Source: an uncultured Candidatus Melainabacteria bacterium
GTDB taxonomy: Bacteria; Cyanobacteriota; Vampirovibrionia; Gastranaerophilales; Gastranaerophilaceae
Direction of reading: 5' to 3'
Assembly: GCA_949398305.1 (NCBI GenBank)
Contig: CASLVD010000009.1
Location: 1-43,007, forward strand
Length of the DNA stretch: 43,007 nucleotides
This document shows positions 22,997 to 38,200 of this stretch, piece by piece. The notes under the pieces are model-generated. The model ran no database searches. It had not been told where the DNA came from and was given only the letters and a program-made list of their open reading frames with translations. Each line of letters starts with the position of its first letter. The stretch's first letter is position 1. A program made the translations under genes and the position numbers.

Positions 22997-23008
22997 AATT
23001 TTATTATA

Positions 23009-24727
23009 TTACAAAAGTTCTTTTTCAATTGTTTTGTTATCTGCGGGTTCTGTTGTTACCGGAAGCGCAAAACGGAAGCTTGATCCTTTGTTTTCTTCAC
23101 TATCACACCAGATTGTACCTTTGTGAGCTTTAATAAGCTGCTTTGCAATCGGAAGTCCTAAACCTGTTCCGCCGACTTTTCTGGATAATGAATTTTCGAT
23201 TTGTGTAAATTTATCAAATGCTTTTAGAAGGTTTTCTTCTTTGATTCCGATTCCTTCATCTACTACACTTACTACAATATAATTCCCGTTTAGTGTTTTT
23301 AGTTCGTTTTCAAAGCAGTTATCGGTATTTATATCTTGGGCATTTTTGAGTTCAGAATGTATTGTAATAGATTTTCCGCGCGGAGTAAATTTTATAGCGT
23401 TTGATACAAGGTTCGTTAAAACCTGTCCGAGGCGCTGCGAATCTGCGTAAATATCCGGAAGATTTTCCTGTTCATTTGTACTGAATGTAATTTCGTGTTC
23501 TTTTGCAACGCAGTCAAAGTTTGTTTTTACATTTTCAATAACAGAATGGATATTCATTAACTTGTAATTGAAATCCATTTTGCCTGCTTCAATTTTGTTG
23601 ATATCAAGAATATCGTTGATAATACTTGTAAGGTTTTCGACATTTCGTTTTGCCATGTCAATAAATTTGTTTGCGTTTTCGCCTAATGTTCCGCATCTGC
23701 CGCTAGAAAGAATGCTTAATGCATTTTTTATAGGTGTAAGGGGAGTTCTTAATTCGTGTGAAACTATTGAAATAAATTCGGATTTTATTCGTTCAAGTTT
23801 TTCAAGTTCTTCGTTTTTTTCAATGATTTCTTTATATAAGCCTGCACTTTTTAATGGCAGTGAGACTTGCTGTACAATTGTTTGAAAGTATGTTGCATCA
23901 TCTGTAGAAAAAGGATTTTCCTTAAAGATTTCAATACATCCGAAAAAGTTATCGCCTAAATCGATTGGCGCAAACATATTGTCGTATTGGAAAATATTAA
24001 ATGTTAATTTGCCTGTCGGATTTTTAATATATTTAACTATTTTCAAGTTCTTGTCATCAATTTCAAAAGGAATTTCGCGGTTTTTGAACAGTGATTTATA
24101 ATTAAGGATGGCACGAAGTTTTAATGCGCTCATCAATTCTTCTGAAATATCATAAAGCGAATTGATAATTAAAACAGGTTCTTGTTCAAATCCGAATGAA
24201 ATTGTACAGGTTAAATCAAAGCTTAAAGATTTATCTAAACCTTCAATCATGTACATTAAAAGTTTTTTTGTATCAAGTGTTCCCGCAAATTGAGAGCTTG
24301 TGTTGTAAAGTACATTTAATCTGTATAAACTGTCTGCAAGATCTTTGTTTTTCCCGGAAAGATTATCGAGTTTTTCTTTATTTCTAATGTGTGCGTTAAC
24401 GGTTGTTTGTATAAGTTCATTTGAATAATTTTTCAAAATAATTCCACTGATTAGTTTTGAAATGTCTTCACTGATAACGGTTTCATCTGTTAAAAGCAAA
24501 ATTTGAACATTTTCAATTTTTGATTTTATTTTTTTTATAATAAGATTCAGGTTTATATTTTCAAGTTTGTCATCAATTAAAACAACATCAATCGGAGAAA
24601 TCTCAATTAAATCCAATATAGATGTATTATTACAACAAGAATTAAAATTATTAAATTCTTTGTTTAATAAACTTTTAAACTTGTTATAAATCTCATCGTT
24701 TTCGGTAACTAATAAAATATTCCCCAT
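23009..24727 (-). CDS. Sensor histidine kinase with N-terminal receiver-like and GAF-like domains
   Basis: A cytoplasmic 572 aa kinase with no membrane helix. Residues 1-115 resemble a receiver fold (M-G-N-I-L-L-V-T-E-N-D, with V-V-L-I-D-D near 48-53), but the T-x-K loop is poorly kept. A GAF-like sensor region covers about 135-290, followed by a short coiled linker. The H-box S-I-V-S-H-E-L-R-T-P-L has the phospho-acceptor H324. The ATPase domain shows the N box (L-V-S-N-A-I-K-F-T), D-E-G-I-G-I and G-T-G-L-G-L-P. Its partner could be one of the three response regulators in the window. It ends just before dxr, an unusual pairing. Confidence 0.93.
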   Translation of the reverse strand: MGNILLVTENDEIYNKFKSLLNKEFNNFNSCCNNTSILDLIEISPIDVVLIDDKLENINLNLIIKKIKSKIENVQILLLTDETVISEDISKLISGIILKNYSNELIQTTVNAHIRNKEKLDNLSGKNKDLADSLYRLNVLYNTSSQFAGTLDTKKLLMYMIEGLDKSLSFDLTCTISFGFEQEPVLIINSLYDISEELMSALKLRAILNYKSLFKNREIPFEIDDKNLKIVKYIKNPTGKLTFNIFQYDNMFAPIDLGDNFFGCIEIFKENPFSTDDATYFQTIVQQVSLPLKSAGLYKEIIEKNEELEKLERIKSEFISIVSHELRTPLTPIKNALSILSSGRCGTLGENANKFIDMAKRNVENLTSIINDILDINKIEAGKMDFNYKLMNIHSVIENVKTNFDCVAKEHEITFSTNEQENLPDIYADSQRLGQVLTNLVSNAIKFTPRGKSITIHSELKNAQDINTDNCFENELKTLNGNYIVVSVVDEGIGIKEENLLKAFDKFTQIENSLSRKVGGTGLGLPIAKQLIKAHKGTIWCDSEENKGSSFRFALPVTTEPADNKTIEKELL

Positions 24728-25241: not shown

Positions 25242-25445
25242 ATGAGACTATCCCCGAAAAAAATTAAAATCTTAACTTTATTAGCTCAAGGTTTTACAGA
25301 TAAAGAGATTTCCCAGAAGTTACAGATGTCAACAAGAACGATACAAACACACATTTCCTCAATTGTTTTATCACTGAACGCACGAAATAGGGTTAATGCA
25401 GTAGCATTATATATGCATCAGAACCCGAAATGTAAAATATTATGA
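25242..25445 (+). CDS. Stand-alone LuxR/GerE helix-turn-helix protein
   Basis: A 67 aa protein consisting only of a LuxR-type DNA-binding domain. L-S-P-K-K-I-K-I-L-T-L-L-A-Q-G is followed by D-K-E-I-S-Q-K-L and the recognition helix T-R-T-I-Q-T-H-I. It lacks a receiver or ligand domain, so activity may depend on its level. AGAGGTG six bases upstream supports the start. As first gene of the phage-like cluster, 7 bases before the amidase gene, it is the only candidate transcription regulator there, and it is of a host-like type, not a CI/Cro repressor. Confidence 0.8.
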   Translation: MRLSPKKIKILTLLAQGFTDKEISQKLQMSTRTIQTHISSIVLSLNARNRVNAVALYMHQNPKCKIL

Positions 25446-25452
25446 GGTATTT

Positions 25453-25953
25453 ATGGTTAAACGAATTGTTTTACACTGGAGCGCCGGAAGGTATTATCCT
25501 ACAGAGTTTGAAAAAAATCATTATCATTATTTAATCGATGCTGACGGAAATGTTTATGAAGGTTTTTATAAGCCTGAAGATAATGATAATTGTAATGACG
25601 GAAAGTATGCAGCACATACCGGAGGGGGTAATACAGGCTCTATTGGAGTTTGTATGTGCGGAATGTACGGATATAAATCAAAAACATTCTGCGGCGATTT
25701 TCCGTTAAAAGCTAATCAGTTTGAAGCGTGTATGAAATTTGTGGCTGAGCTTTGCGAAAAGTACGGTCTTGCAATAAATAAAAATACCGTTTTAACGCAT
25801 TATGAATTCGGTCAGGCTAATCCGAAAACAACAAGTTTCGGGAAAATCGATATTACTTATATCCCTTCATATCCCTGGGTAACTAAACAAGATGCTGGAA
25901 ATTTTATTCGTTCTAAAGTTCGCTGGTACAAAGAGAAATATATAAGAGGTTAA
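25453..25953 (+). CDS. N-acetylmuramoyl-L-alanine amidase (Amidase_2, T7 lysozyme type)
   Basis: A 166 aa endolysin that would cut the amide bond between N-acetylmuramic acid and the stem peptide. Zinc ligands are likely H8 (V-L-H-W-S-A-G) and H116 (L-T-H-Y-E), with a third near D133. Another conserved histidine, H55, is in A-A-H-T-G-G-G-N. No signal peptide is present, so it needs a holin to reach the wall. GAGGT before the ATG supports the start. It is one of two different peptidoglycan hydrolases in the cluster; the other is a GH108 lysozyme at the far end. Confidence 0.9.
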   Translation: MVKRIVLHWSAGRYYPTEFEKNHYHYLIDADGNVYEGFYKPEDNDNCNDGKYAAHTGGGNTGSIGVCMCGMYGYKSKTFCGDFPLKANQFEACMKFVAELCEKYGLAINKNTVLTHYEFGQANPKTTSFGKIDITYIPSYPWVTKQDAGNFIRSKVRWYKEKYIRG

Positions 25954-25957
25954 TTTT

Positions 25958-27478
25958 ATGGATGTTAATTATTTTGATTTATCCGGTGGAATCAATCAGG
26001 CTTCCACCAAAACTGAGCTGGGGTTAAATCCTAAAAAGATTTACTGGACAGATTCTGAAAATATTGAAATTTACAACAATAAAGGTATTAAAAAACAAAA
26101 AGGTAATACGTTATTTTTAGAACTGCCCGAAGCTGAAAAGATTACAGGACTTTGCGAAATGGAGTCTGACGGGAATTATAAACTCATTATTACCACAGTT
26201 TCAGGTAAAATTTATGTTTATAATGAAGTAAATGCTTCGGTAACTAAACTTGAAAAAACACTGACCGGTGAAAAAGTACTTTTTGCAAAATTTTTACGCG
26301 GAGTTGTTGTCGCAACAGAATCTGATGCAATGTTTTATATTAAAGATAACAGTAATTTTGATGTTGTTGATTGTAAATTTAAAGACAAAGCAGGTAATAT
26401 TTGTTATCCGGATTGTATTACGGTCTACAAAGGAAGAGTATGGTGCTGCAAGGATTCTACAATATATTATTCCGCACTTGGTACGTATGATGATTTTACA
26501 ACCGAAGAAGATGCCGGATATATTAGTGATTTCCATACGGATACAGATGATATTATCACTATAAATACTTATAAAGATTATCTTGCGATTTATAAGCGCG
26601 AAAAAGTATTTTTATTATCCGGTTCAAATCCTAATAATTTTGTGATAACTCCTTTTGCAGATAAAGGTGCTTATGCAAAAGATACTATTGTAAATGTTGA
26701 TAATAAACAATTTTTCTTAAGTAACGGGATTTATGCATTAGAACAAGTTGGGGAATTGAATCAAATTCGTCTCGGTTCTGAAATTTCACAAAATATTCGC
26801 GAGGAATTTAATAAGTTTGATACCTCAAGAACCGGTGATACTTTTGTTGTTCATTATAAAACCCAACATCAAGTCTGGTATTTCTTCCCGTATCTGAATG
26901 ATAATTTTTATCATACAGTTTGGATAAACGATTATGTGAATTATGCCTGGTATAAACGTATAATTCCGCAAAATATTACAACTGCCTGCATTTATAAATT
27001 GAATGTATTAACTGCAGATGATTCAGGCAAAATTTATATTGAAGATTACGGAACAAGCTTTGACGGTAAAGCAATAAAATTTATGTGGAAGTCGCCGTTT
27101 TTATCACTTGGCAACGTTTTGCACAGAAAATTGATTGATGAATTTTATTTTGTACTGGATGACATACACGACAATAAATTTAAATTTTCTTTATACAAGG
27201 ATTATGACAGTGAATACAAAGATGATGTAGAGCTTATTTACTGCAAACACTTTAATCACTTTATGTGGGCCGGAGATGATACTCCTGATGAAAAAGAATA
27301 TTACTGGAATGACGGTGAATCAGAAGTTCCGGTTTGGCCGGTTACGACCAATGCTATGGAAAAAGCCGAAATCTGCGGCAGTAATTATTCTATTCAGCTT
27401 TGCATTGAAGGCGATGATATTACTGATAACTGTGCAATTATCGGGCTTCAGTTCAGAGAAATTTATAACGATGACTAA
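25958..27478 (+). CDS. Podovirus nozzle / tail-tube B-like structural protein
   Basis: A 506 aa protein rich in beta strands. Its start (F-D-L-S-G-G-I-N-Q near 6-14, then D-S-E-N-I-E-I-Y-N-N and I-K-K-Q-K-G-N-T) has the pattern of podoviral nozzle proteins such as T7 gp12 and relatives, where a G-G-[IV] start is followed by a N-[IV]-x-x-x-x-G-x-[IL]-x-x-R/K-x-G block. The middle has repeated Y-K-[GD] beta segments compatible with a propeller. It would form the distal tube of a short tail. It is assigned by pattern only; a different tail role is possible. It begins 4 bases after the amidase gene. Confidence 0.6.
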   Translation: MDVNYFDLSGGINQASTKTELGLNPKKIYWTDSENIEIYNNKGIKKQKGNTLFLELPEAEKITGLCEMESDGNYKLIITTVSGKIYVYNEVNASVTKLEKTLTGEKVLFAKFLRGVVVATESDAMFYIKDNSNFDVVDCKFKDKAGNICYPDCITVYKGRVWCCKDSTIYYSALGTYDDFTTEEDAGYISDFHTDTDDIITINTYKDYLAIYKREKVFLLSGSNPNNFVITPFADKGAYAKDTIVNVDNKQFFLSNGIYALEQVGELNQIRLGSEISQNIREEFNKFDTSRTGDTFVVHYKTQHQVWYFFPYLNDNFYHTVWINDYVNYAWYKRIIPQNITTACIYKLNVLTADDSGKIYIEDYGTSFDGKAIKFMWKSPFLSLGNVLHRKLIDEFYFVLDDIHDNKFKFSLYKDYDSEYKDDVELIYCKHFNHFMWAGDDTPDEKEYYWNDGESEVPVWPVTTNAMEKAEICGSNYSIQLCIEGDDITDNCAIIGLQFREIYNDD

Positions 27479-27538
27479 TTTAAAAACCTACCACTCATTA
27501 TATAGTTTATAGTTTTGAAAAAATGAAAGGAAAATGAA

Positions 27539-28501
27539 ATGACAGATTCAAACAAATCAACTTATTCAGCTTTTATTCCTCAGGTATGGAGTCAAAAGTT
27601 GAACCAAATGTTAGACAAAAATTGTGTAATGCTTCAGTGTGTTAACAGAAATTGGGAAGGTGAAATTAAAAATCAGGGTGATACCGTTAAAATTATTACT
27701 CCTGCTGATGTTACAGTTTCAACTTTAACTTCTGATAATATTGAATATTCTGCATTAACACCGACTTCACAAGATTTGGTTATCGATCAAAAGAAATTCT
27801 TCGCATTTAAAATCGATGATGTAGCTCAGGTACAGGCAAATTCTGATATTATGGAAGCTCATTTGACAAATGCTAAAAAAGCAATCGAAGAAGTTCAGGA
27901 TTCATTCCTGTTATCACTTCACACAGATGTAACAGAAGCTAATACTGTAGGTTCTGAAGAATCTCCGATTACATTAAACAAAAATACAATTTATGAACAA
28001 TTTGTAAAATTATCTTTAGCGTTAAAAAATTCAGATGCAGTATACTCAGGCGTAAAACCTTGGGTTGTTATTAACCCTAATATCGAAGCTTACCTGTTAC
28101 AATCTCCTGAATTTATTTCAGCATACAAAGTTGGTGACCAAACTTTAAGAGAAGGTTCAATCGGCAGAATCGCAGGCATGGATGTGTTGGTAAGTACAAA
28201 CTTAACTGACGTTGACGATAAATACTACGTTTTAGCAGGTACAAACGATGCAATTACATTCGCATCCCAACTTGCAAAAATCGAAAGCTTAAGAGATAAA
28301 GACAGCTTCTCAGATTTAGTCAGAGGTTTATATTTATACGGTGCTAAAACAGTTCAGCCTAAAGCTTTGGCCAAAATGATTGTTGCCGCAAGTGAAACTG
28401 TAGCTCCGGCAGCACCTTCAGAAGGAGAAAAAGATCCTGTTGAAGGCGGTAATGGTGACGGAACAGAAACCGGAACTGAAACAGGTGGAGAAACTGTTTA
28501 A
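27539..28501 (+). CDS. Major capsid protein (HK97 fold, P22-coat-like)
   Basis: A 320 aa protein with a typical coat layout. An N-terminal arm (Y-S-A-F-I-P-Q-V-W-S-Q-K-L) is followed by the G-D-T-V-K-I-I-T-P strand, the helix D-I-M-E-A-H-L-T-N-A-K-K-A-I, the W-V-V-I-N-P-N motif, and I-A-G-M-D-V-L-V-S-T-N-L. Coat proteins of podoviruses and siphoviruses share this order. The C terminus (about 295-320) is a low-complexity tail of G, E, T and D that may project from the capsid. The gene is preceded by AAAGGAAA and is less A/T-biased in codon use than its neighbours, as expected of a highly expressed gene. Confidence 0.85.
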   Translation: MTDSNKSTYSAFIPQVWSQKLNQMLDKNCVMLQCVNRNWEGEIKNQGDTVKIITPADVTVSTLTSDNIEYSALTPTSQDLVIDQKKFFAFKIDDVAQVQANSDIMEAHLTNAKKAIEEVQDSFLLSLHTDVTEANTVGSEESPITLNKNTIYEQFVKLSLALKNSDAVYSGVKPWVVINPNIEAYLLQSPEFISAYKVGDQTLREGSIGRIAGMDVLVSTNLTDVDDKYYVLAGTNDAITFASQLAKIESLRDKDSFSDLVRGLYLYGAKTVQPKALAKMIVAASETVAPAAPSEGEKDPVEGGNGDGTETGTETGGETV

Positions 28502-28517
28502 TTTTCAACTGGTGTAT

Positions 28518-28539
28518 CCCCGAATTTTCGGGTTCGGGG
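28518..28539 (+). other. Hairpin after the capsid gene
   Basis: CCCCGAA (28518-28524) pairs with TTCGGGG (28533-28539). No T run follows, so it is probably an RNA stability or processing element below a highly expressed message. Confidence 0.5.
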
Positions 28540-28566
28540 AGCACTTAACCAAATAGGAGAACAGGG

Positions 28567-28815
28567 ATGTTTAAGAACTTGAAATCTAAAATAAAAGAAC
28601 TTGCAAAAAATGCGGTTTTTGTTGCAGAGTCGCAGCTTGGTTCAGGCAAAGGACAGGAAAAGAAAAAATTAGCTATTGATTATGTAGTAAAAAATCTTCC
28701 TTTTCCGTCTTTCGTGAAGAATATAATTTCGGTGCTTTTATCAAGTTTTATAGATGATGTAATAGAAATATCCGTATCATATATGAAATCATTACCAGCA
28801 AAAGAAGGAGAATAG
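28567..28815 (+). CDS. Small holin-like protein (LLH-type resemblance)
   Basis: An 82 aa protein. A-K-N-A-V-F-V-A-E-S-Q-L-G-S-G-K-G-Q-E-K-K is the kind of stretch seen in the C-terminal part of phage LLH-type holins, with a small-residue helix, S-G-K-G and a K-K-K cluster. The following I-I-S-V-L-L-S-S-F-I region is hydrophobic but short for a membrane helix. It lacks the N-terminal membrane segment of classic LLH holins, so the call is tentative. AGGAG lies before the start. Confidence 0.4.
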   Translation: MFKNLKSKIKELAKNAVFVAESQLGSGKGQEKKKLAIDYVVKNLPFPSFVKNIISVLLSSFIDDVIEISVSYMKSLPAKEGE

Positions 28816-28819
28816 TCTT

Positions 28820-29497
28820 ATGCAAAATCAAATGGGCGGAGCAATTCCGCAAAACTTACCAAATGGTATTTCATCACCTGCCGTAAGTCCGCAGGCAAAC
28901 CCTAATATGGGATATAATGATAATTTTTATCAAATGGAACAAGCAATCGGAGCAGAGGTTACTCAGGTGAAAAATCTTGTACAGCAAGGAATACTCACAC
29001 AACAACAAGGACATAATCTGTTGGCGCAGCTGGTGGGTAGGGCTCAAAATTTAAATATGTACAAGAATGCTCAGCTTATGAATGCTAATTCCGCAGGAAT
29101 GGGTTATCAACCTGTGCCTCAGGCGCCAAATCCTATGGATTTGTTTAATCAGGAACGTCCGGGATTTTTTGATGCCGATGGCAGAAGTGATGTATTAAAT
29201 TACATCAAAGGGTTTGATATGGACAAAGATGAAATACTTCGAATATCTCAGCTTGTTGAAGGTCTGGAAAACTCAGCAGTTGACAAATATTTGAAAAAAT
29301 CAGCTTACGAGAAATCATTGAATGACGAGAACGCACTGGCAAAAAGTAAATTGACGGCTTATGCTCAAAATGCTCCGGCTGACCAGAATTTTAACAGGAT
29401 TTTTACTCGTGAGGAAATCGGCAGAATGAGTGGGGATGAATTTACAAGAAATGAAAAAATGATTATGGATCAGTTGAAAAACGGATTAATTAAATAA
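28820..29497 (+). CDS. Scaffold-like virion assembly protein
   Basis: A 225 aa, Gln/Asn/Pro-rich protein. A disordered N terminus (1-35) is followed by helical segments (Q-M-E-Q-A-I-G-A-E-V near 38-47) and a middle F-D-A-D-G-R-S-D-V-L-N-Y-I-K block. It ends with a motif at 195-225 (F-T-R-E-E-I-G-R-M-S-x-x-E-F, then N-E-x-x-I-M-x-Q-L). Its location after the capsid and its composition suit a scaffold or capsid-decorating protein. A related motif occurs twice in the lysozyme encoded at 35713. Confidence 0.55.
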   Translation: MQNQMGGAIPQNLPNGISSPAVSPQANPNMGYNDNFYQMEQAIGAEVTQVKNLVQQGILTQQQGHNLLAQLVGRAQNLNMYKNAQLMNANSAGMGYQPVPQAPNPMDLFNQERPGFFDADGRSDVLNYIKGFDMDKDEILRISQLVEGLENSAVDKYLKKSAYEKSLNDENALAKSKLTAYAQNAPADQNFNRIFTREEIGRMSGDEFTRNEKMIMDQLKNGLIK

Positions 29498-29521
29498 ACT
29501 TGTAATTTGTCCAAAAAGGTT

Positions 29522-29559
29522 ATCCGGACGGGATATTCTATTATTCCGTCCGGATTTTA
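29522..29559 (+). terminator. Hairpin between the scaffold-like and adaptor genes
   Basis: ATCCGGACGG (29522-29531) pairs perfectly with CCGTCCGGAT (29546-29555), and TTTT follows. The T run is short, so termination may be partial. Confidence 0.6.
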
Positions 29560-29573
29560 AAAAAGGAGAAAGA

Positions 29574-30212
29574 ATGAAATTTTTAGAACTTATAAATAAA
29601 TGTTTACTTGAATTGAATTACAGGCAGGTAAATGCATTTTCCGAGCTTATTAAAAATGATCATAAACGAATAAAAACGATTATGAATCTTATTAACAAAG
29701 AAATTTGCGCTGTTGAAGGCTGGAATTTCCTCTTAAAAAGAGAATCTTTGACGCTGAAAGCAGGTGAAACTGAAGTTGATAACACTGTTAACGGAAGAAT
29801 TTTATATTTATTTATTGACGGAAATAAATATAATTTCGTTGATAATGTTGAATCCTTTATGGCAGGAAATGCAAAAACCGGAACGTATTCAAGTTTTTCG
29901 GATAAATTAATATTTCCGAAATTTGATAAAGACAAAAAAATAGATATTATTTACTATACAAAAAATTGTGTAATCGACAGTACGGGTAAAGAAAAAGTCG
30001 ATTTAGAAAATGAAAATGATAAATCACTTATCCCGTTACCGTTTGTAGAACAATTGTTAGTTTACGGAACATGTCTAAGGTTAAAGGCGAATCCTCAGTA
30101 TTATAAATTTTCATACTGGATGAGCATGTACAAAGAGGCTCTTGCAAACTTAAAATCCAAGACTTCTGCTTCTTATTTAAATGCTCCGGTAGTAAAGCTT
30201 TTCAGGAATTAA
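29574..30212 (+). CDS. Head-tail adaptor (T7 gp11-like tail tubular protein A)
   Basis: A 212 aa protein that begins with helical L-E-L-I-N-K-C-L-L-E-L-N-Y-R-Q-V-N-A-F, the usual pattern of podoviral adaptors that attach beneath the portal. A central beta-rich domain follows, with G-R-I-L-Y-L-F-I-D-G and D-I-I-Y-Y-T-K, and a C-terminal helical stretch Y-W-M-S-M-Y-K-E-A-L-A-N-L-K-S. The length (about 200) fits. AAGGAG six bases upstream supports the start. The assignment is by pattern and neighbourhood. Confidence 0.65.
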   Translation: MKFLELINKCLLELNYRQVNAFSELIKNDHKRIKTIMNLINKEICAVEGWNFLLKRESLTLKAGETEVDNTVNGRILYLFIDGNKYNFVDNVESFMAGNAKTGTYSSFSDKLIFPKFDKDKKIDIIYYTKNCVIDSTGKEKVDLENENDKSLIPLPFVEQLLVYGTCLRLKANPQYYKFSYWMSMYKEALANLKSKTSASYLNAPVVKLFRN

Positions 30213-30319
30213 GGGCAAAAAAAACAGGAAGTCCTTTTCATTCCCCCCTGTTAAGATTTACACTAGCCGAAATATAAATAGCATGTTCATTATACAAACT
30301 ATTAAGGAAAAATACAAAT

Positions 30320-30325
30320 TATAAT
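30320..30325 (+). promoter_or_regulatory. Possible internal promoter before the terminase genes
   Basis: TATAAT with a predicted start at 30332, nine bases before the TerS ATG. The -35 is poor. The 128-base gap (30213-30340) also holds an AACAGG/CCTGTT hairpin followed by eight T when read leftward. Confidence 0.3.
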
Positions 30326-30340
30326 AAGAAATGTAACAAG

Positions 30341-30775
30341 ATGAAACAATTAACACAACAACAAAAAAAGTTCGTAACCGAGTATATAAAGGCTCTTGAC
30401 GGTGAATTGGCGGCGAAAAAAGCCGGATACAAGTGTAAAGATTTAAAAGGTTTTTCACAAAGTCTGCTTACAAAAGATTACATAATCCGTGAGATAAAAG
30501 ACCAGTTAAAACTTCAAATTGAATCTTTGAGTGTGCAAAGAGGCTATGTTATTCAAAAACTTTTGCAAATTGCTGAATTTTCACTTGAGCAGGAGGATAT
30601 TTTGGATAAAGACGGCAATCCGACCGGAAAAAGAAAATTACGTGATTCTTCTGCAGGATTGAAGGCTTTGGAAGCTCTTTGCAAGTATTTGGGATTTAGC
30701 ACCGCGCAGAGTGATGATGAATACCGTGAGGCAAAAATTATTACGATTGCGAACCTGGATGATGAAAAAATTTAA
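30341..30775 (+). CDS. Terminase small subunit (Terminase_2-like)
   Basis: A 144 aa DNA-binding protein. The N-terminal L-T-Q-Q-Q-K-K-F-V-T-E-Y and G-E-L-A-A-K-K-A-G-Y-K helix-turn-helix are typical of TerS. It is followed by Y-I-I-R-E-I-K-D-Q-L-K and A-G-L-K-A-L-E-A-L-C-K-Y-L-G, the usual oligomerisation helices. It recognises packaging DNA and recruits the large subunit encoded at 33418. In canonical phages the two are adjacent; here four ORFs separate them. Confidence 0.8.
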   Translation: MKQLTQQQKKFVTEYIKALDGELAAKKAGYKCKDLKGFSQSLLTKDYIIREIKDQLKLQIESLSVQRGYVIQKLLQIAEFSLEQEDILDKDGNPTGKRKLRDSSAGLKALEALCKYLGFSTAQSDDEYREAKIITIANLDDEKI

Positions 30776-30793
30776 TTATGAAAGGTATATTCT

Positions 30794-31018
30794 ATGAAAG
30801 AGAATAAAGATATTGAAAAAATATTATTAAATGATTCCGCTTATGAAAAGATGGTTAAAACCAAAATTGAGCGGGAATTTAAAAAGGAACTTGAGCTGGC
30901 AAAAAAATGCGCAATAAAATTATTACAGATATTAAAAAAGTTCCGAAAGAAAAACTTTTTACAAAATCAGCAACGTATGAAGTTATCAATAAAAACAGTA
31001 AAACAAAATCTTATATAA
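30794..31018 (+). CDS. Small ORF upstream of an A7 slippery site
   Basis: A 74-codon ORF with AAAGG nine bases before its ATG. Its first 38 codons look like real protein (acidic, helical, K-E-L-E-L-A-K-K at the end). After the seven-A run at 30901-30907 the translation is only a lysine/leucine/glutamine shadow of the overlapping next ORF. The A-AAA-AAA heptamer is in the proper zero frame for -1 slippage. The true product is probably the N-terminal part alone, or fused to the next ORF by frameshifting. Confidence 0.45.
   Translation: MKENKDIEKILLNDSAYEKMVKTKIEREFKKELELAKKCAIKLLQILKKFRKKNFLQNQQRMKLSIKTVKQNLI
30901..30907 (+). other. Candidate -1 frameshift site (A AAA AAA)
   Basis: The heptamer is split as xxA AAA AAA in the upstream frame, the canonical arrangement for -1 slippage. 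The new frame stays open to 31143. An assembly indel would give the same picture. Confidence 0.45.
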
Positions 31019-31143
31019 ACGGAGTGCAGGCGGAAGGTTATCTGGGGGCAAAAAACTCAGATAGAGCAAAGCTTTTGAATGGTGAAACCGATTCTTTTGT
31101 CTGCGGGTGTAATTTTGTAAGATTTGTAAAAGTCAAAATGTAA
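30907..31143 (+). CDS. Small hypothetical protein, -1 frame relative to the preceding ORF
   Basis: A 78-codon ORF starting at ATG 30907, whose A is the last of the seven-A run. Beta-rich segments (S-A-T-Y-E-V-I-N-K-N) and C-G-C-N-F-V near the end give it a more protein-like composition than the overlapping part of the ORF at 30794. There is no good Shine-Dalgarno for its own ATG. It may be translated as the C-terminal part of a fused 116 aa product. No family is recognised. Confidence 0.5.
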   Translation: MRNKIITDIKKVPKEKLFTKSATYEVINKNSKTKSYINGVQAEGYLGAKNSDRAKLLNGETDSFVCGCNFVRFVKVKM

Positions 31144-31148
31144 GTATT

Positions 31149-31658
31149 ATGTGTAAATTTCTTAAGGTCAAAGATAGTTGTAAGCTCCTTTCACTGTTGC
31201 ACTATATCCCTTCTGTCGAAAAGTGTTATCGTAAATATTCCAAATATTTTCAGGATGATTTCTCAAAAGATACCGGTTTAAGCTTAAACGGTATTTACCC
31301 CAATTTTTGGATTATTCTGGATTATTCGGACAATTTTATGGGGTTTGTGTTTCTGGATAATTTTGTTGGGATACGCGGGAATTTATTCAGTGCAGAACTC
31401 ACAACATGTTTTGATAGAAAGGCTTGGGGTAGTTTTACCCGATATAGTGCAAAAATTTTTTTAAAGAAATGTTTTGATGAATTTGGCTTAATAAAAGCCC
31501 AGATTTATCCTGATAATTTCCGCATAAGAAATCTTTTGAAAGATTGCGGCTTTGAGTATGAGTCGACTTTGAAAAATGAAACACTAAGAAACGGAAAACC
31601 GCAGGATATTGAGGTTTATTCGTTATACAGAAACTATTATTACAAAACTGCGAGGTAA
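31149..31658 (+). CDS. GNAT-fold phage protein (T7 gp13-like position)
   Basis: A 169 aa protein with a GNAT-like pattern: W-I-I-L-D-Y-S-D-N-F-M-G-F-V-F-L-D strands, an S-A-E-L-T-T-C-F-D-R core strand, W-G-S-F-T-R helix and I-R-N-L-L-K-D-C-G-F-E-Y near the C terminus, the latter typical of N-acetyltransferases. Podoviruses of the T7 group carry GNAT-like proteins (DUF2833/gp13 type) associated with internal virion proteins. It could also be a true acetyltransferase. Translation is probably coupled, as its ATG is five bases after the previous stop and no clear Shine-Dalgarno is present. Confidence 0.55.
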   Translation: MCKFLKVKDSCKLLSLLHYIPSVEKCYRKYSKYFQDDFSKDTGLSLNGIYPNFWIILDYSDNFMGFVFLDNFVGIRGNLFSAELTTCFDRKAWGSFTRYSAKIFLKKCFDEFGLIKAQIYPDNFRIRNLLKDCGFEYESTLKNETLRNGKPQDIEVYSLYRNYYYKTAR

Positions 31659-31660
31659 AT

Positions 31661-33373
31661 ATGGAAAATAACAAAAAAGATAAAAAATCGTTAGATTATA
31701 TTGAAGAACAGTATCTTTTGGGAAATATAATCGAAAAATATGATTATTATGAAGATTCAAGAAGTGCTCAGTTAGCAGATAACAGACTTGTTCGGCATGC
31801 TATATATGATGCTTCTATCCCAAAAGTAAATGCTTGGGATTGCACGGTTCAATTACCGGATATTTATGAATTGGCTCAAACTTTAAAATCACACATTACT
31901 CAGAATTTATATTCACATCCTGACAGTATGTTTGATGTTGAAGGAACCGATTATGAAACCCAAAAATTTGCAAATACGCAAAAAGCTATGCTTGTGAATA
32001 CATTTGAAGCAATGAAGCTTGAAGATGAAATGGAAAAAATTGTGGATTCTGTTGTTGAAACAGGTGAAGTAACACTTTTTGTCGGCTGGGAAACAAAAAC
32101 CAGAAAGACAAGACGTGCAATTTCTATGCGCGAGCAGCTTGAACGTAATACTGATAAAAACTTCGTAATTGAAGATAAAGTTGTTTACGACAATGCAAAA
32201 GTTAAATTTATCAGTTATGAGGATTTTGTTTTTGACAGAACAGAAAGTGATAATTGGGATTCCTGTGCAAAAATTTACAGGACTTATCAAACTTTAGATG
32301 AAATTAAGTCTAACAAGTCAAATAATTTATTGAATGAAGAAAAACTGGAAATGCTGAAAGGAGTGGTGGCAAAAAAATCAAGAAAAAGTAATAATAAATT
32401 AACGACTTATGAAAGAAAAATTGAAGTATTGGAATACTGGGGTGATATAGAACTTCCAAATGGTGAAGTTTTGAAAAATAAATTAATTGTCATAGCCGGA
32501 AGAAGTGTTCTTATAAGGTTTGAAGATAATCCGTTTATAATAAATCCGTTTATCCATGCTAATATTATTGAAAACCCGGCAACAGGACGCGGAATTTCAC
32601 CGTTAAGAGTTGCATTAATTTTGAATAATATATCATCAACAATTTTGAATAAACAGCTTGATGCTCTTGCTTTGATGATGAATCCTCCATATCTTGCACC
32701 AAAAGGCTGTTTTAAAGGCGAACAGGATATTCATCCGGGTAAAATTATAGAATACGATGCTACTTTAATGACCTCTCCGCCGACTCCTATTGCGTTTGAT
32801 AAAGCTATGCAGGGATGGGAATTCTTGAATTACTTTAAATCTACAATTGAAAGTGCGACAGGTATTTTCAAAAATATGGCAGGAAATCTTCAAGCAGCTC
32901 AAAGAACTGCAACTGAATTAAATTATTCAGTCGGCGGTCAGGAAGCAAGATTAAATATGATTCTTGAATCTATAAACAGAAAAGTAATTGTTCCGATGGT
33001 TGAAAAAACCGCAGAAATTATTTCAAATTTCAAATTGGGTAAAGAATCCGTTCTTGCAAATGACAGGGGCAGAGTTTTTCTTGTTGAAATTGATGATAAT
33101 GTGCGCAGATCAAATTATGTATATCGTTACGGAGACAGAAAAGCAACATTTGAACGTAAAGCGCGTTTAAAAGAATTGTTTGAAGTTGTTCATTCCTTCT
33201 TGCAGGTAGATGCGATTGCACAACGTATTGATTGGTTAGAATGTTTCAAATTTGCAATGGAACAATATGGAATTGAAAATGCAAATAATTTCTTAACAGA
33301 AGAAAATGAACAAAATAAATCCCCGCAGGAGCAGGCAGCAGCTCCAAATATTGCGCAAATGAATATGCAATAA
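31661..33373 (+). CDS. Portal protein (podovirus type)
   Basis: A 570 aa protein at the size expected for podoviral portals. The wing and stem pattern is visible as helical segments (A-L-I-L-N-N-I-S-S-T-I-L-N-K-Q-L-D-A-L-A), P-P-Y-L-A-P-K-G, and the conserved tail A-T-E-L-N-Y-S-V-G-G-Q-E-A-R-L-N that precedes the long C-terminal helix. The last 20 residues are Q/A-rich and unstructured, as in many portals. It begins two bases after the GNAT gene and is followed by the large terminase. Confidence 0.8.
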   Translation: MENNKKDKKSLDYIEEQYLLGNIIEKYDYYEDSRSAQLADNRLVRHAIYDASIPKVNAWDCTVQLPDIYELAQTLKSHITQNLYSHPDSMFDVEGTDYETQKFANTQKAMLVNTFEAMKLEDEMEKIVDSVVETGEVTLFVGWETKTRKTRRAISMREQLERNTDKNFVIEDKVVYDNAKVKFISYEDFVFDRTESDNWDSCAKIYRTYQTLDEIKSNKSNNLLNEEKLEMLKGVVAKKSRKSNNKLTTYERKIEVLEYWGDIELPNGEVLKNKLIVIAGRSVLIRFEDNPFIINPFIHANIIENPATGRGISPLRVALILNNISSTILNKQLDALALMMNPPYLAPKGCFKGEQDIHPGKIIEYDATLMTSPPTPIAFDKAMQGWEFLNYFKSTIESATGIFKNMAGNLQAAQRTATELNYSVGGQEARLNMILESINRKVIVPMVEKTAEIISNFKLGKESVLANDRGRVFLVEIDDNVRRSNYVYRYGDRKATFERKARLKELFEVVHSFLQVDAIAQRIDWLECFKFAMEQYGIENANNFLTEENEQNKSPQEQAAAPNIAQMNMQ

Positions 33374-33417
33374 GCTGCTTGACTAGTGTATTTAAATAGA
33401 ATCTTTGAGGTATCAAT

Positions 33418-34707
33418 ATGAAATATAAATTATTAGATGCACAGAGAAGATTTTTAGAAATTCCGCATAATTTTTCCCTGGACGTTGCAGTATACCAGGG
33501 CGGCTATGGCTCCGGCAAAACCTTTGCCGGAGCCTTGCTGGGGATTTTGCTTGCCGTAAAATTCCCCGGAATTACAGGTCTTGTCGGTGCACAAACTTAC
33601 ACGCTTGTGCGTGATACAACTTTGAAAACTTATTTTGAACATCTTGATAATATCGGTTTTGTAGATAAAGTCGATTATAAATGGGTAAGTGCCGAGCAAA
33701 AATTGGTTTTTCATAACGGCTCTCAAATCCTTTTCAGACATTTTGATGAACCGAATAAGCTTAAATCTTTAAACCTTGGTTTTGTTGAAATCGAAGAAAT
33801 GTCAGATGTCCCTTATGACACATTTAAAATGCTATTAGCACGTATGCGGCAAAGAAAGCATCCAAAATGGCATAATTTTACTTACCGTATATTTGGACAT
33901 ACAAATCCGGAGGTTCAAAAAGGCTGGATTTATAAAACGTTTTACGATAATCCGCCGCCAAATTACAGACTTATCTGTGCTCCAACCACTCAAAACACAT
34001 ATCTTCCGGAAGGCTTTTGTGATGAACTCAAAAAACTTTATGACAAAAGTTATTATGAGATTTTTGTTATGGGGAAAGCCGGAGATTACAGCACAAACCT
34101 TGTTGTGAAAGATTTTACTGATGAAAATGTCAGGGAAATCCAATATCAAAAAGATTTAGATGTTCATATAAGCTGTGATTTTAACGTTGATCCTATGGCG
34201 TGGGTTCTTGCTCATAAAACAGAAGACAAGGTTTTTTATTTTGATGAACTTGTATTGGAAAACACTACAACTTCAAAAACCTGTGACGAGTTTTATGCAA
34301 GATATCCCGAGCATAGAGGAAAAATTATAATAAATGGTGACGCGTCAGGTGATAACAGAAGTTGTACGAGTGAATACACAAATTACGTTATTATCAAAAA
34401 GAAGCTGGAATCTTTTGGTTACGATGTGGATATAAAAATAAAAAGTTTCAACCCGCCGATAAAAAACAGGATAGCAGCCTTTAATGCAAAAGTTAAAAAT
34501 GCAGACGGCAATGTCAGTTTATATATTTCGCCGAAATGTGAAAAACTTTTGTATAACATTTATAACCTGCGTTATCAGGAAGGTTCGTCAAAAATTGATG
34601 TACCGACTTATACCCAGATTAAGCAGACAAAAGAGTTGAAATTTTTATCTCATCCCTTTGATGCGGCATCGTATCTGGTTGATTTTTACTGGCCGATTGT
34701 ACTTTAG
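33418..34707 (+). CDS. terL: Terminase large subunit
   Basis: The DNA-packaging motor, 429 aa. Walker A is Q-G-G-Y-G-S-G-K-T at 27-35. Walker B with the catalytic glutamate is L-G-F-V-E-I-E-E at 120-127. The nuclease domain keeps its acidic metal site: D254 in S-C-D-F-N-V-D-P, D308 in I-N-G-D-A-S-G-D and D415 in H-P-F-D-A-A-S. Both ATPase and nuclease therefore appear functional, which argues against simple decay of the cluster. It is preceded by the portal with a 44-base gap containing GAGGT. Confidence 0.93.
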   Translation: MKYKLLDAQRRFLEIPHNFSLDVAVYQGGYGSGKTFAGALLGILLAVKFPGITGLVGAQTYTLVRDTTLKTYFEHLDNIGFVDKVDYKWVSAEQKLVFHNGSQILFRHFDEPNKLKSLNLGFVEIEEMSDVPYDTFKMLLARMRQRKHPKWHNFTYRIFGHTNPEVQKGWIYKTFYDNPPPNYRLICAPTTQNTYLPEGFCDELKKLYDKSYYEIFVMGKAGDYSTNLVVKDFTDENVREIQYQKDLDVHISCDFNVDPMAWVLAHKTEDKVFYFDELVLENTTTSKTCDEFYARYPEHRGKIIINGDASGDNRSCTSEYTNYVIIKKKLESFGYDVDIKIKSFNPPIKNRIAAFNAKVKNADGNVSLYISPKCEKLLYNIYNLRYQEGSSKIDVPTYTQIKQTKELKFLSHPFDAASYLVDFYWPIVL

Positions 34708-34727
34708 AAAAATGAAAGGAAAAGTTT

Positions 34728-34955
34728 ATGGATAATTTAGTAACGTATGCTCCGATAATAGTTGTTGTTTTGGCGTTTTTAATTCAGGAAAGAATTTTTG
34801 TAACGCCTGAACAGCTAGAGCGTAAACACCGTGAAATTATAAAAGATGTTGAAAAGCGATTTGCAACGATAGACAGCTGCGAAGATTTAAAAGGGCAAAT
34901 AACAGAGATGAAAGACAAAATAGATAAAATCTATGATTGTCTGATATTACAATAA
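34728..34955 (+). CDS. Small membrane protein with coiled coil (holin- or spanin-like)
   Basis: A 75 aa protein with a membrane helix at about 6-21 (A-P-I-I-V-V-V-L-A-F-L-I) and a charged coiled-coil C terminus (E-Q-L-E-R-K-H-R-E-I-I). The topology suits a lysis accessory protein or a small pinholin-like protein. AAAGGAAA precedes the start. The following 150 bases hold a perfect 11-bp hairpin and a vestigial start site. Confidence 0.55.
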   Translation: MDNLVTYAPIIVVVLAFLIQERIFVTPEQLERKHREIIKDVEKRFATIDSCEDLKGQITEMKDKIDKIYDCLILQ

Positions 34956-34961
34956 CACTTT

Positions 34962-34987
34962 TGCGGAAGCGGTTTTCCGCTTCCGCA
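34962..34987 (+). other. Perfect 11-bp hairpin
   Basis: TGCGGAAGCGG and CCGCTTCCGCA pair around TTTT. There is no T run on either strand, so it is more likely an RNA stability element or protein site than a terminator. Confidence 0.55.
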
Positions 34988-35010
34988 TCCAAAACTGAAA
35001 GGAGAAACAT

Positions 35011-35025
35011 ATGAAACCGAAATAA
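35011..35025 (+). other. Vestigial start site (M-K-P-K-stop)
   Basis: AAGGAG (34999-35004) is followed six bases later by ATG AAA CCG AAA TAA. This is a good ribosome binding site with only four codons. It looks like the stump of a gene replaced by the LprI-like gene that follows. Confidence 0.35.
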
Positions 35026-35035
35026 AAATAGCTAC

Positions 35036-35082
35036 TTGACTATCTTGACGTAATAATTGTTATATTAAACAATAAAGATAGT
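35036..35082 (+). promoter_or_regulatory. Own promoter and nested dyad before the LprI-like gene
   Basis: TTGACT (35036-35041), 19 bases, then an extended -10 TGTTATATT (35058-35066). Two nested inverted repeats cover it: ACTATCTT/AAGATAGT (35039-35046 and 35075-35082) and ATTGTT/AACAAT (35056-35061 and 35068-35073). This is the layout of a separately regulated cargo gene. Confidence 0.5.
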
Positions 35083-35105
35083 TGGAATGTTAAAGGTGGA
35101 ATAAT

Positions 35106-35663
35106 ATGAAAAAAATAATAATAAATTTAATAATATTGGCTCTTTTGTTACTATCTGTGTTTGGAATCTTTTTTTCGATTCGTTATTATGAAAAAACAAA
35201 ACTCTTGAATAAAAAGGTAATTGATTTGTCTTCAAAAATAGAAGTGCAAAGATTAAATATCTTGGAGTTACAAGATGAAATTACAGAAAGTAAATCAACA
35301 CCTAATGTAAAACCTGCAAAACATCCACTTGAAGAAAAACTTCAAGTTTGTATGCAAAATGAAAATTATACAACATCTGGTATGAATGCTTGTGTATATG
35401 ATTCAATTAAGGACTGGGAAAAAGAAATTGATAAAAGTCTTATGCTTTTAAAAGGAGTAACAACTAAAGAACAATATGTTAAAATTCAAACGGCTCAAAA
35501 AGAATGGTTAATTTATAGGGAAAATCAAAGTAAAATAAATTCTGAACTGTTATTAAGTAAACAAGGAACAATTTATACAAATTATCTTGCCGGTATGGAC
35601 GTGGCTATTGTTCAAAAAAGAGCCGAAGAACTTCATAGTTTGTATTATTTTTATTCAAAATAA
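35106..35663 (+). CDS. Membrane-anchored LprI-like (DUF1311) lysozyme-inhibitor-type protein
   Basis: A 185 aa protein. An N-terminal membrane helix (about 4-24) is followed by a coiled coil (28-62) and a DUF1311/LprI-like domain. The DUF1311 marks are C82 and C96 in C-M-Q-N-E-N-Y-T-T-S-G-M-N-A-C, then W104, and A-Q-K-E-W-L-I-Y-R-E-N-Q at 130-141. LprI of Mycobacterium inhibits C-type lysozyme. The membrane-plus-coil design also recalls spanins. It has its own promoter with dyads and higher A/T content than the neighbours, so it may be a cargo gene. It sits directly before a GH108 lysozyme gene, so the target could be that enzyme, a host muramidase or gut lysozyme. The domain match is by eye. 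Confidence 0.65.
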   Translation: MKKIIINLIILALLLLSVFGIFFSIRYYEKTKLLNKKVIDLSSKIEVQRLNILELQDEITESKSTPNVKPAKHPLEEKLQVCMQNENYTTSGMNACVYDSIKDWEKEIDKSLMLLKGVTTKEQYVKIQTAQKEWLIYRENQSKINSELLLSKQGTIYTNYLAGMDVAIVQKRAEELHSLYYFYSK

Positions 35664-35712
35664 TATTCTGCCTTGTTTTGTTAATACTTAATAAAAAAAA
35701 GGAGAATAATAA

Positions 35713-36663
35713 ATGATTAATGATGAAAATTTTAAAACAGCTCTTGATTTTGTTTTTAAATCTGAAGGTGGTTTTTCAGACAGAAAAAGTGACCGTGGCG
35801 GACGGACAAATTTTGGAATTACTCAAAGTACATATAATGGTTATAGAAGAAAACGGGGGTTGCCATATAAAGATGTGAAAGGTATTACAAGAGAAGAAGC
35901 AAAAAATATTTATTATGAAGATTTTTGGAAAGCTTCAGGAGCTCATAATACTGATAATAGAGCTATGGCAATTACTTTGTTTGATACTGCTGTTTTACAT
36001 GGTGTTGAAAATGCTAAAATACTGTATAAAAAAAGTGGAAATAATGTTGATAAACTACTTGATTTAAGGTTGCAAGCATATCAAAATGATGTAAACAAAC
36101 ATCCTGACCAAGGTGAATATTTACAAGGTTGGCAAAATCGAGTAAAGAATCTAAGGAAGAATATTAACAGTATTAATATCGTTCCAAAACAACAACGAGA
36201 AATTTATAAAAATATTCTAGGAACTCCTATTCACTATGATATAAATAAAAACTTACCGAGATTTGCAACGGGCTTTGCTGTACCTATAGAACAAACGACA
36301 CCTCATCAAGTTTCATTTACTCCTGAACAAATAGGAAAAATGAGTCGTGAGGAGTTCGATAAAAATGAAAGCGCAATAATGCACCAATTGCAAACCGGTG
36401 GTCTTAATCAAGAGCCTTCAAGAGATTTTGGCGGTTATCGGAATTCACACACCGGAGATAATCGAATTTATACCGCAGAAGATATTGGTAATTTTTCAAG
36501 CTCGGAATTTAGTCACCATGAACCTGCAATCAATGCTCAGATGAACAGTATAGGAATTCCGACCAATAATGATATGCAAAATTCAGGCGGAACAGTTTAT
36601 ATAGCACCTTATACCAGAAGTGACGGAGTTGAAGTACGCGGTCATTATCGTTCAAGGGGGTAA
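35713..36663 (+). CDS. GH108-type lysozyme with C-terminal virion-motif repeats
   Basis: A 316 aa protein. Residues 1-150 form an N-acetylmuramidase (GH108 family) with E18 in S-E-G-G-F-S-D and the signature D-R-G-G-R-T-N-F-G-I-T, followed by a PG_binding_3-like region (about 115-147). The C-terminal 150 residues do not belong to the enzyme. They hold two copies of a motif, at 202-231 (F-T-P-E-Q-I-G-K-M-S-R-E-E-F) and at 253-282 (Y-T-A-E-D-I-G-N-F-S), that also ends the scaffold-like protein at 28820. This suggests a virion-associated lysozyme. AAGGAG precedes the start. Its stop codon overlaps a GGGGTAAAT repeat. Confidence 0.88.
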   Translation: MINDENFKTALDFVFKSEGGFSDRKSDRGGRTNFGITQSTYNGYRRKRGLPYKDVKGITREEAKNIYYEDFWKASGAHNTDNRAMAITLFDTAVLHGVENAKILYKKSGNNVDKLLDLRLQAYQNDVNKHPDQGEYLQGWQNRVKNLRKNINSINIVPKQQREIYKNILGTPIHYDINKNLPRFATGFAVPIEQTTPHQVSFTPEQIGKMSREEFDKNESAIMHQLQTGGLNQEPSRDFGGYRNSHTGDNRIYTAEDIGNFSSSEFSHHEPAINAQMNSIGIPTNNDMQNSGGTVYIAPYTRSDGVEVRGHYRSRG

Positions 36664-36736
36664 ATATAGTTACAAATGATTTCAATATTACCTCAGGAGT
36701 TGAGCTGCGCAAGGGGTAAATGTAGTTACAAATGAT
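36653..36736 (+). repeat. Interspersed element copy C (36657-36714) plus a partial second unit
   Basis: CAAGGGGGTAAATATAGTTA (36653) recurs as CAAGGGGTAAATGTAGTTA (36710), both continuing CAAATGAT. The 58-base unit between the first GGGG and the second AAGG (36657-36714) has the same ends as copies A, B and D. The tandem start at 36713 shows units can join end to end. The first copy covers the lysozyme stop codon. Confidence 0.6.
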
Positions 36737-36853: not shown

Positions 36854-38200
36854 ATGAGTGAGTCGAGTCTGGGAATAATTATTTCCAATTGGTTGATAGT
36901 TTTTGTACTGTTACTTGTTAACGGTTTTTTCGTAGCTGCAGAATTTGCTATTGTTAGAGCAAGAAGAACGAAAATCGAACAACTTACCAAAGATGGTAAT
37001 GTTGATGCGAAACTTGCACTTAAAGCTCTTGAAGATATGAATTTCTTTATTGCGGCAGTTCAGGTTGGGGTTACAATCGCAAGTATTGGTATTGGTTGGT
37101 TTGGATCACCTACTATTGAAATGATGATGAAACCATTGCTTGATGAATTCCCGTCTGCTCATGTTTACCTTGCTCCTTTAACTGCGGTTATGGCATTTTT
37201 AGTCGTAACTTTTTTACACGTTGTTATTGGGGAACAGGTTCCTAAATGTATAGCTCTGCAATATCCTGAAAAAATATCTCTATATGTTGCAAAACCTATG
37301 GATTTATTTATGACAATCTCAAAACCGTTTGTTTGGTTTTTGAATATTGCTTGTAACGGGATTTTGAAACTTTTCAGAGTTCCTGTAAGTACAGCTCGGG
37401 TTGTTCATACTATCGAAGATTTAGACTTGCTTGTTGATACAAGTTATGATGAAGGTGTTCTAAACGAAACAGAAAAAGATATGATTCATAACGTGTTTAA
37501 GTTTTCTGATTTAACTGCAAGAGAAGTTATGATTCCTCGTACAGATATGGTTTGTGTACCGTTGGATATGACGCTTGATGAACTTAATAAAGTTGCAACT
37601 GAAAATCAATATACAAGATATCCTGTTTATGATGGTGATATTGATCATATTACAGGTTTAATCCATGTTAAGGATTTGTATTCTTTAGCGTTGAAAGATG
37701 AAGTTTGTCCTATTGAGAAAGTTCAACGAACAGTAATGCTTGTTCCTGAAACTATTACAATGGACAATTTGGTTAGAGAATTCAAGAAAAATAAAAGCCA
37801 GATGGCAATTGTTGTCGATGAATTTGGTGGAACTTCAGGTATAATTACTTTGGAAGATGTTTTGGAAGAAATTTTCGGTGATGTTCAGGATGAATTTGAC
37901 GAGGAAGTTGAATTTGATATAAAAGAAATTAAGCCGAATCATTACCTTGCAAATGGTATGATGAGACTTGATGAATTAGCAAATTACTTTGATGTTCCTG
38001 ATGAAAAACTTGAAGATGAAGATGTTGATACAATTGCAGGTCTTGTTGTTAAAGAGCTTGGACGTTTAGCGCAATTAGATGATGTTGTAAAATACCACGA
38101 ATTTGTGTTCACAGTAAAAGAAATTGACGGTGCACGTATTACTAAGCTTCTTATTGTAAAAGAAGAACCTTCTGAAAGTATAAATGTAAAGGCTGAATAA
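36854..38200 (+). CDS. CNNM/CBS-domain transporter of the HlyC/CorC family
   Basis: A 448 aa membrane protein. A DUF21/CNNM domain with three to four helices covers about 8-170 (N-G-F-F-V-A-A-E-F-A-I-V-R-A-R motif at 23-37). A CBS pair follows (M-I-P-R-T-D-M-V near 222, Y-P-V-Y-D-G-D near 257, M-A-I-V-V-D-E-F-G-G near 315). A CorC/HlyC acidic domain ends it. Family members are linked to magnesium or divalent-cation export. A TATAAT at 36821-36826 is a likely -10. AAAGG just before the ATG supports the start. This is host chromosome just right of the phage-like cluster. Confidence 0.92.
   Translation: MSESSLGIIISNWLIVFVLLLVNGFFVAAEFAIVRARRTKIEQLTKDGNVDAKLALKALEDMNFFIAAVQVGVTIASIGIGWFGSPTIEMMMKPLLDEFPSAHVYLAPLTAVMAFLVVTFLHVVIGEQVPKCIALQYPEKISLYVAKPMDLFMTISKPFVWFLNIACNGILKLFRVPVSTARVVHTIEDLDLLVDTSYDEGVLNETEKDMIHNVFKFSDLTAREVMIPRTDMVCVPLDMTLDELNKVATENQYTRYPVYDGDIDHITGLIHVKDLYSLALKDEVCPIEKVQRTVMLVPETITMDNLVREFKKNKSQMAIVVDEFGGTSGIITLEDVLEEIFGDVQDEFDEEVEFDIKEIKPNHYLANGMMRLDELANYFDVPDEKLEDEDVDTIAGLVVKELGRLAQLDDVVKYHEFVFTVKEIDGARITKLLIVKEEPSESINVKAE

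Follow-up and report, generated by a model that had tools for sequence, protein, structure and literature searches.

A run of phage-type genes on one strand of a bacterial contig raises the question of whether it is a prophage, a satellite or a system that the host has kept. We asked this of positions 25242-36663 of the window, the whole 43,007-nucleotide stretch analysed here, which is contig C9 of a 109-contig, 1.92-Mb, 99% complete genome of the order Gastranaerophilales. An earlier interpretation of this DNA (hereafter the sequence-only reading) had proposed either a retained packaging system resembling a gene transfer agent (GTA) or a satellite that borrows missing parts. Comparison with related genomes, nearly all metagenome-assembled and each representing one species, strongly supported the retained GTA-like system through its occupancy, chromosomal site, gene order and selection. 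As seen in the sequences, the cluster is a reduced set of packaging and particle genes that is endogenised, vertically inherited and under purifying selection, and whose parts lie far from each other in some species. It is very probably a domesticated particle system. The reading that we favour, as the probable one, is that it encodes a host-maintained, podovirus-derived GTA-like particle (a viriform) in Gastranaerophilales whose scaffold tag loads toxins.

All open reading frames (ORFs) of the cluster lie on the plus strand and form a compact podovirus-type particle gene set. Capsid, portal, both terminase subunits, adaptor and nozzle had been claimed for a single strand, and the ORFs and profile matches agreed, for the nozzle together with its fold. 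The major capsid protein (27539-28501) matched phrog_267 (major head protein; 3.6e-54), the portal (31661-33373) matched phrog_332 (head-tail adaptor/portal family; 1.3e-34) and PF12236 (2.7e-6), and the head-tail adaptor (29574-30212), in a position like that of P22 gp4, matched phrog_6013 (tail protein; 1.2e-7). The small terminase TerS (30341-30775) was recognised by Terminase_2 (PF03592; 2.5e-14) and phrog_51 (1.4e-15), and the large terminase TerL (33418-34707) by Terminase_3 (PF04466; 3.2e-20) and the PHROGs TerL profile (5e-32). Its ATPase and nuclease residues, described earlier as intact, were indeed so: Walker A, Walker B and the nuclease Asp were invariant in 80/80 sequences. The tail nozzle (25958-27478), a beta-propeller, matched phrog_3287 (virion structural protein; 2e-16), and its AlphaFold2 (AF2) model (mean pLDDT 75, pTM 0.78) matched P22 gp10 (8eap; E 8.5e-15, TM 0.61), Sf6 gp8 and T7 gp12. 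Among GenBank phages, the nearest capsid relative was a hypothetical protein (44% identity) at 212648-213478 of Microcystis phage MaAM05 (MW495066), a 274-kb cyanophage record. As the sequence-only reading had stated, no integrase, replication or repressor gene was found among the cluster ORFs by Pfam and PHROGs profile searches, and a repeat search found no direct repeats bridging the two cluster borders. The window contains no tRNA.

Far from being absent in close relatives, the cluster was present in 45/46 genomes of its own genus, as judged by the portal (33/34 high-quality genomes), which was single-copy in all but one. TerL was found in 170 of the 288 family genomes; 108 matches (row count) were 72-100% identical, and none of those had an internal stop. 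At the order level, 224/383 genomes carried a portal, about 138 of them (again by row count) at 61% identity or more, the others being diverged types. Gene order was judged from 80 genome loci and 36 fetched regions. The core order was identical wherever the main type was present (own genus, g7, g9, g10, g13, g17, g22, g35 and g38), and an order of 12-13 genes was constant over 60+ loci, with single-gene absences such as the missing nozzle and GNAT matches in L097 and L100. ORFs were intact in 752 of the 758 gene instances checked, among them TerL 79/79, portal 67/67, TerS 65/65, adaptor 63/63, nozzle 52/52 and capsid 57/59 (strict rule).

We rejected the idea that every TerL match belongs to the same system. 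Genera g24, g29, g34 and g40 (TerL 55-58%, portal about 35%) differ in gene order and carry extra genes, and integrase-bearing phages share TerL too. These genera mostly hold one copy each of this more distant TerL/portal set (L221-L223), which may represent either widespread prophages or a second type of domesticated cluster. At L219 (G095, genus g36), a diverged and reordered whole cluster lies between host genes (TerL 63%, capsid 43%, portal 40%), with no integrase in the stretch. The diverged clusters of g24, g29, g34, g36 and g40 were viewed briefly.

The chromosomal site of the cluster was stable within the genus. The window and each of the eight unsplit regions fetched from the genus had dxr and a histidine kinase (21869-24727 of the window, minus strand) as immediate left neighbours; one g10 region had dxr on the left and no kinase. 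The CNNM/CBS host gene on the right (36854-38200, plus strand) had been suggested as the marker of the locus. The same locus was recognised in relatives by its left side, whereas the CNNM gene adjoins the cluster in only part of the genus. In four genomes (G219, G100, G250 and G074), the amidase-to-portal block and TerL with its holin were on separate contigs with neither part degraded, and in G219 TerL came after ribosomal-protein genes. A self-packaging phage could not be so arranged, and we infer that packaging of the whole set in a single piece would scarcely be possible where TerL sits on a separate contig. In many genera, split loci included, an unassigned gene, u692 (MGLAASQARFL..., 38930-41008), or a relative of it comes after TerL and its holin. 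Because it has paralogues at several other loci of its own genome, u692 was left out of the cluster.

Inheritance was assessed in 24 genomes by comparing the phylogeny of seven proteins from the cluster (2294 columns) with that of the RNA polymerase subunits rpoB+rpoC (2344 columns). The two trees had 11 of 21 splits in common, against a mean of 0.24 and a maximum of 3 for shuffled labels (2000 trials), and patristic distances correlated at r=0.92 (shuffled maximum 0.36). The genera were recovered. Two strongly supported cluster splits clashed only with weakly supported host splits, and the strongly supported host split joining g17 with g7 clashed with cluster splits of at most 85% support. 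The inheritance of the cluster is mostly vertical, and it co-diversifies with its hosts. Ratios of nonsynonymous to synonymous divergence (dN/dS), calculated by the Nei-Gojobori method with many dS values near saturation, were 0.01-0.2 for most cluster genes. They were 0.014-0.058 for TerL, 0.014-0.13 for the capsid, 0.018-0.097 for the portal and 0.08-0.33 for the scaffold-like protein u225, compared with 0.037-0.085 for the neighbouring host dxr and histidine kinase genes. The cluster genes are under strong purifying selection.

What are the closest free phages? No larger complete phage carrying this cluster emerged among close-relative IMG/VR contigs (TerL at least 72%), which covered short parts of this cluster. 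In the largest of them (33.8 kb), the cluster runs straight into host genes, CNNM and u193, with an integrase match about 16 kb beyond. Temperate-phage contigs 35-48 kb long, whose TerL was 53-57% identical, had an integrase in 10/10 cases and nothing matching the window's capsid, portal or nozzle. One 39.7-kb contig, L343 (IMGVR_UViG_3300033463_000402), contained TerL, portal, a u225 homologue, capsid, adaptor, nozzle and the GNAT-like gene in one run, with a DnaB helicase, an exonuclease and fibre-like genes elsewhere. This phage is diverged (TerL match 2.6e-125; u225 match only 48% over the C-terminal tag). Free phages that share a related TerL or related structural genes do exist; they are diverged and have genes absent from the cluster. 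Since L343 has this module together with a helicase, an exonuclease and fibre-like genes, the cluster is best read as a reduced form of such a phage.

Six properties have been given for GTAs (Kogay et al. 2022): a Caudoviricete-derived particle, an endogenised and often multi-locus gene set, mostly vertical inheritance, packaging of mostly random host DNA, incomplete packaging of the GTA's own genome, and delivery to cells. Three of these can be examined in sequence data, and all three were found here. The particle proteins are Caudoviricete-derived by their PHROGs and Pfam matches and the nozzle fold; the genes are endogenised over several loci, with TerL split off in four genomes and tagged genes dispersed; and the cluster co-diversifies vertically with its hosts, although not along the exact host topology. 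This makes it a strong candidate GTA, not a proven one. Like RcGTA, BaGTA and VSH-1 (Kogay et al. 2022), it consists of Caudoviricete-derived structural and packaging genes that are endogenised, sometimes split, vertically inherited and free of replication and integration genes. Unlike them, it belongs to Gastranaerophilales, has a nozzle and adaptor of podovirus type and comes with a varying repertoire of tagged toxin-like proteins, and its packaging and transfer are predicted. We lean slightly towards the view that it packages and transfers DNA.

The tag belongs to u225 (28820-29497), an all-helical protein of 225 amino acids (aa). In a 54-member alignment, the last 32 residues (29396-29491; hidden Markov model match 2.7e-19) were its best-conserved part, with a column conservation of 0.80 compared with 0.40 and 0.61 elsewhere. 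The AF2 model was all-helical and ended in three short C-terminal helices. The usual position of a scaffold gene is between the portal and capsid genes. The u225 homologue of L343, which terminates in EFTREQIGKMSPEEFAKNEKIIKQAMLEGKVR, is located there, and in the window u225 comes after the capsid gene. We consider it somewhat more likely than not that u225 is the scaffold.

Variable proteins encoded in the interval from portal to TerL, or downstream of TerL, carry one or two copies of the same tag. This tagged toxin-like repertoire, overlooked by the sequence-only reading, is new here. In a search of 16 cluster-bearing genomes, the tag gave matches in all, with at most 10 in each and dispersed loci included; the dispersed tagged proteins of the window's own genome are lipase-like on C51, LPD3-like on C20 and PBECR1 on C1. 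The neighbours of tagged loci were mostly ordinary chromosomal genes. A Pfam scan of ten tagged proteins listed PBECR1 (1.9e-7), DUF6973 (2.8e-10), Lipase_3 (3.6e-7), GH108 (8.3e-24) and, weakly, LPD3, and no MuF domain. Next to lipase-type and DUF6973-type effectors there was usually a gene for a divergent membrane protein, about 120-145 aa long. Variable toxin-type domains on tag-bearing proteins, often beside immunity-like genes, are what one would expect of a polymorphic toxin-immunity system, with toxicity and protection predicted. At L220 (G046, genus g8), four consecutive tagged effector genes precede the capsid gene, beside small divergent membrane proteins. At L271, L277 and L281, the tag is N-terminal, ahead of a variable C-terminal domain, and runs of small membrane proteins follow.

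In the window, the tagged protein (35713-36663) combines a GH108 muramidase domain (PF05838; 9.7e-24) with two tag copies (36313-36402 and 36463-36558) and a terminal VYIAPYTRSDG motif. Directly before it lies a gene for a membrane-anchored LprI-family protein (35106-35663; PF07007, 6e-10), and the same pairing of an LprI-family gene with a GH108 effector recurs at two further loci, L227 and L274, the second of them a separate locus on the chromosome. One passage in the literature describes LprI as giving lysozyme resistance in Mycobacterium tuberculosis (PMC7933661). The sequence-only reading had counted two wall hydrolases, one of them the amidase. The second, the GH108 protein, occupies a species-variable slot, bears the scaffold tag and has an LprI-family partner, and so resembles a toxin effector more than a phage endolysin. 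A 24-nt direct repeat, 96% identical, lies just 3' of the GH108 gene (36657-36736).

These genes suggest how the system might work. Under host control, some cells would produce small podovirus-like particles from capsid, portal, adaptor and nozzle. With no phage genome to package, TerS and TerL would load host DNA into them, and lysis of the producer would fall to the holins and amidase. u225 would build the procapsid with its C-terminal tag as the coat-binding end, and tagged toxin-like proteins, here GH108, would enter through the same contact. The particle would then deliver the tagged toxins to recipient cells, with kin protected by adjacent immunity-like proteins, here LprI. There is a precedent for loading in P22, where cargo fused to scaffold residues 141-303 or 238-303 becomes encapsulated (PMC9962691). 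In both cases the cargo is placed ahead of the scaffold C-terminal part and drawn into the capsid; here, however, the arrangement would be natural, and neither a sequence nor a fold link between u225 and P22 gp8 was found. Whether the tag loads toxins into the particle we regard as evenly balanced. Still more tentative is the combined proposal of an ancient podovirus-derived GTA that also loads dispersed, species-variable toxins through a tag copied from its scaffold. One particle could then deliver both DNA and kin-discriminating toxins, as a natural counterpart of the engineered P22 scaffold fusions.

How do other explanations account for these observations? A live, functional prophage was rejected on the occupancy, the split loci and the missing integrase, replication gene and attachment repeats. 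The satellite proposed earlier, whether like a phage-inducible chromosomal island or otherwise helper-dependent, was likewise rejected as unsupported, because the cluster has its own capsid, portal, TerS and TerL and neither an integrase nor a replication gene. A prophage lineage that has been highly successful in the genus, is degenerate or dependent on a helper, and still spreads horizontally would fit the different sites between genera, the existence of related true phages and a mosaic pattern of synonymous divergence between the window and G208 (L200). There, divergence was 0.55-1.16 from amidase to the GNAT-like gene, 0.05-0.30 over the stretch running from portal to holin, and 0.29-0.37 for the left flank. 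This pattern suggests that the structural half was exchanged between lineages. Such a lineage is nevertheless very improbable in view of the near-complete genus occupancy with almost no broken genes, the cluster-host distance correlation, the lack of integrase, replication gene and attachment repeats, and the separation of TerL from the structural genes in four genomes.

PBSX-type defective phages make a conserved, non-propagating particle and may kill competitors. The cluster could likewise be a domesticated particle kept as a toxin-delivering antibacterial weapon, with DNA incidental and gene transfer without benefit, a comparison made by description only and with a different tail type expected. 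What speaks for this weapon is that variable toxin-like proteins, encoded both within the cluster and at scattered loci, have immunity-like genes beside them, and that GH108 and LprI are paired at three loci. Strong purifying selection on TerS and TerL, together with the invariant catalytic residues of TerL, argues that DNA packaging matters, and four cluster-bearing genomes (G156, G073, G155 and G094) have no tagged protein besides u225, so that toxins are not always part of the system; we consider the weapon unlikely. It is also rather unlikely, if somewhat less so, that the particle is GTA-like while the tag is a generic tail motif of phage proteins and the proteins bearing it are prophage remnants, unrelated lysins or toxins. 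GH108 is typical of phage endolysins, three genomes without the cluster have tagged genes, and terminal motifs such as GKWVTINGNHV presumably resemble the tails of phage head proteins. Yet the tagged genes examined sit mostly amid chromosomal housekeeping genes rather than prophages, the tag is the best-conserved stretch of u225 and is repeated within single proteins, and tagged proteins co-occur with the cluster. Those beyond u225 were found in 11/15 cluster genomes compared with 3/24 without it (Fisher p 3e-4, a guide only, as the 39 genomes are related and phylogenetically non-independent).

Several observations weigh against the toxin-loading, GTA-like particle that we favour. The approximately unbiased (AU) test rejected the exact host topology for the cluster data (delta lnL 258; about 10,000 for shuffled trees), and with the mosaic between the window's genome (G000) and G208 this means that some exchange occurs. 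Many genera of the family have no cluster, and outside the genus the neighbours are other genes, the site differing between most genera. No tail fibre or ejection protein was identified in the cluster. Foldseek gave no significant match of the u225 fold to the PDB, and middling VIA-align Z scores to helical pieces were uninformative. Loading by the tag is argued from shared sequence, and the immunity roles of LprI and the other neighbours are proposed from adjacency. The cluster is known here from its genes, from which the particle, the packaged DNA and its transfer are predicted.

The remaining genes of the cluster concern regulation, lysis and less defined functions. The first gene (25242-25445) encodes a 67-aa LuxR/GerE-type helix-turn-helix protein (PF00196; 2e-14), in agreement with the regulator named earlier, and is kept in loci of several genera. 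It is followed by an N-acetylmuramoyl-L-alanine amidase (25453-25953; Amidase_2 PF01510, 3.8e-16; phrog_5867, 7e-34), which may act in lysis or be virion-associated. Two holin-like genes and the GNAT-like gene were absent from the earlier gene list. The LLH-type holin-like protein (28567-28815) matched phrog_6918 (2.5e-8), with PF09682 slightly below cut-off, and the BhlA-like holin (34728-34955; PF10960, 0.0056, weak) accompanies TerL even in split clusters. The GNAT-like acetyltransferase (31149-31658; PF13302, 6e-5) is kept in nearly all clusters and in phage relatives. Between TerS and the GNAT-like gene lies a conserved protein of ~117 aa with no assigned function (30794-31143). In the window it is covered by two overlapping frames (30794-31018 and 30907-31143), and relatives have one frame of ~117-121 aa, which indicates a frameshift or assembly error.

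The tagged proteins resemble the MuF polymorphic toxins of temperate phages, in which variable toxin domains are joined to a conserved phage-head-associated module and accompanied by small putative immunity ORFs (Jamet et al. 2017, PMC5576092). They differ in that the module is a C-terminal tag in common with a scaffold-like protein and that the genes are dispersed outside prophages. In the open-access literature, we found no paper joining 'gene transfer agent' with Gastranaerophilales and no title or abstract on a Melainabacteria GTA, and a 2026 paper on gut capsid DNA does not name Gastranaerophilales. If our reading is true, it would extend GTAs to a widespread gut group beyond the lineages studied and to a podovirus-type particle, and bacteria that are seldom grown in culture would have a direct means of exchanging genes. 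A connection between domesticated phage particles and polymorphic toxins would follow from the tag, whose short C-terminal sequence would offer a testable rule for capsid loading.

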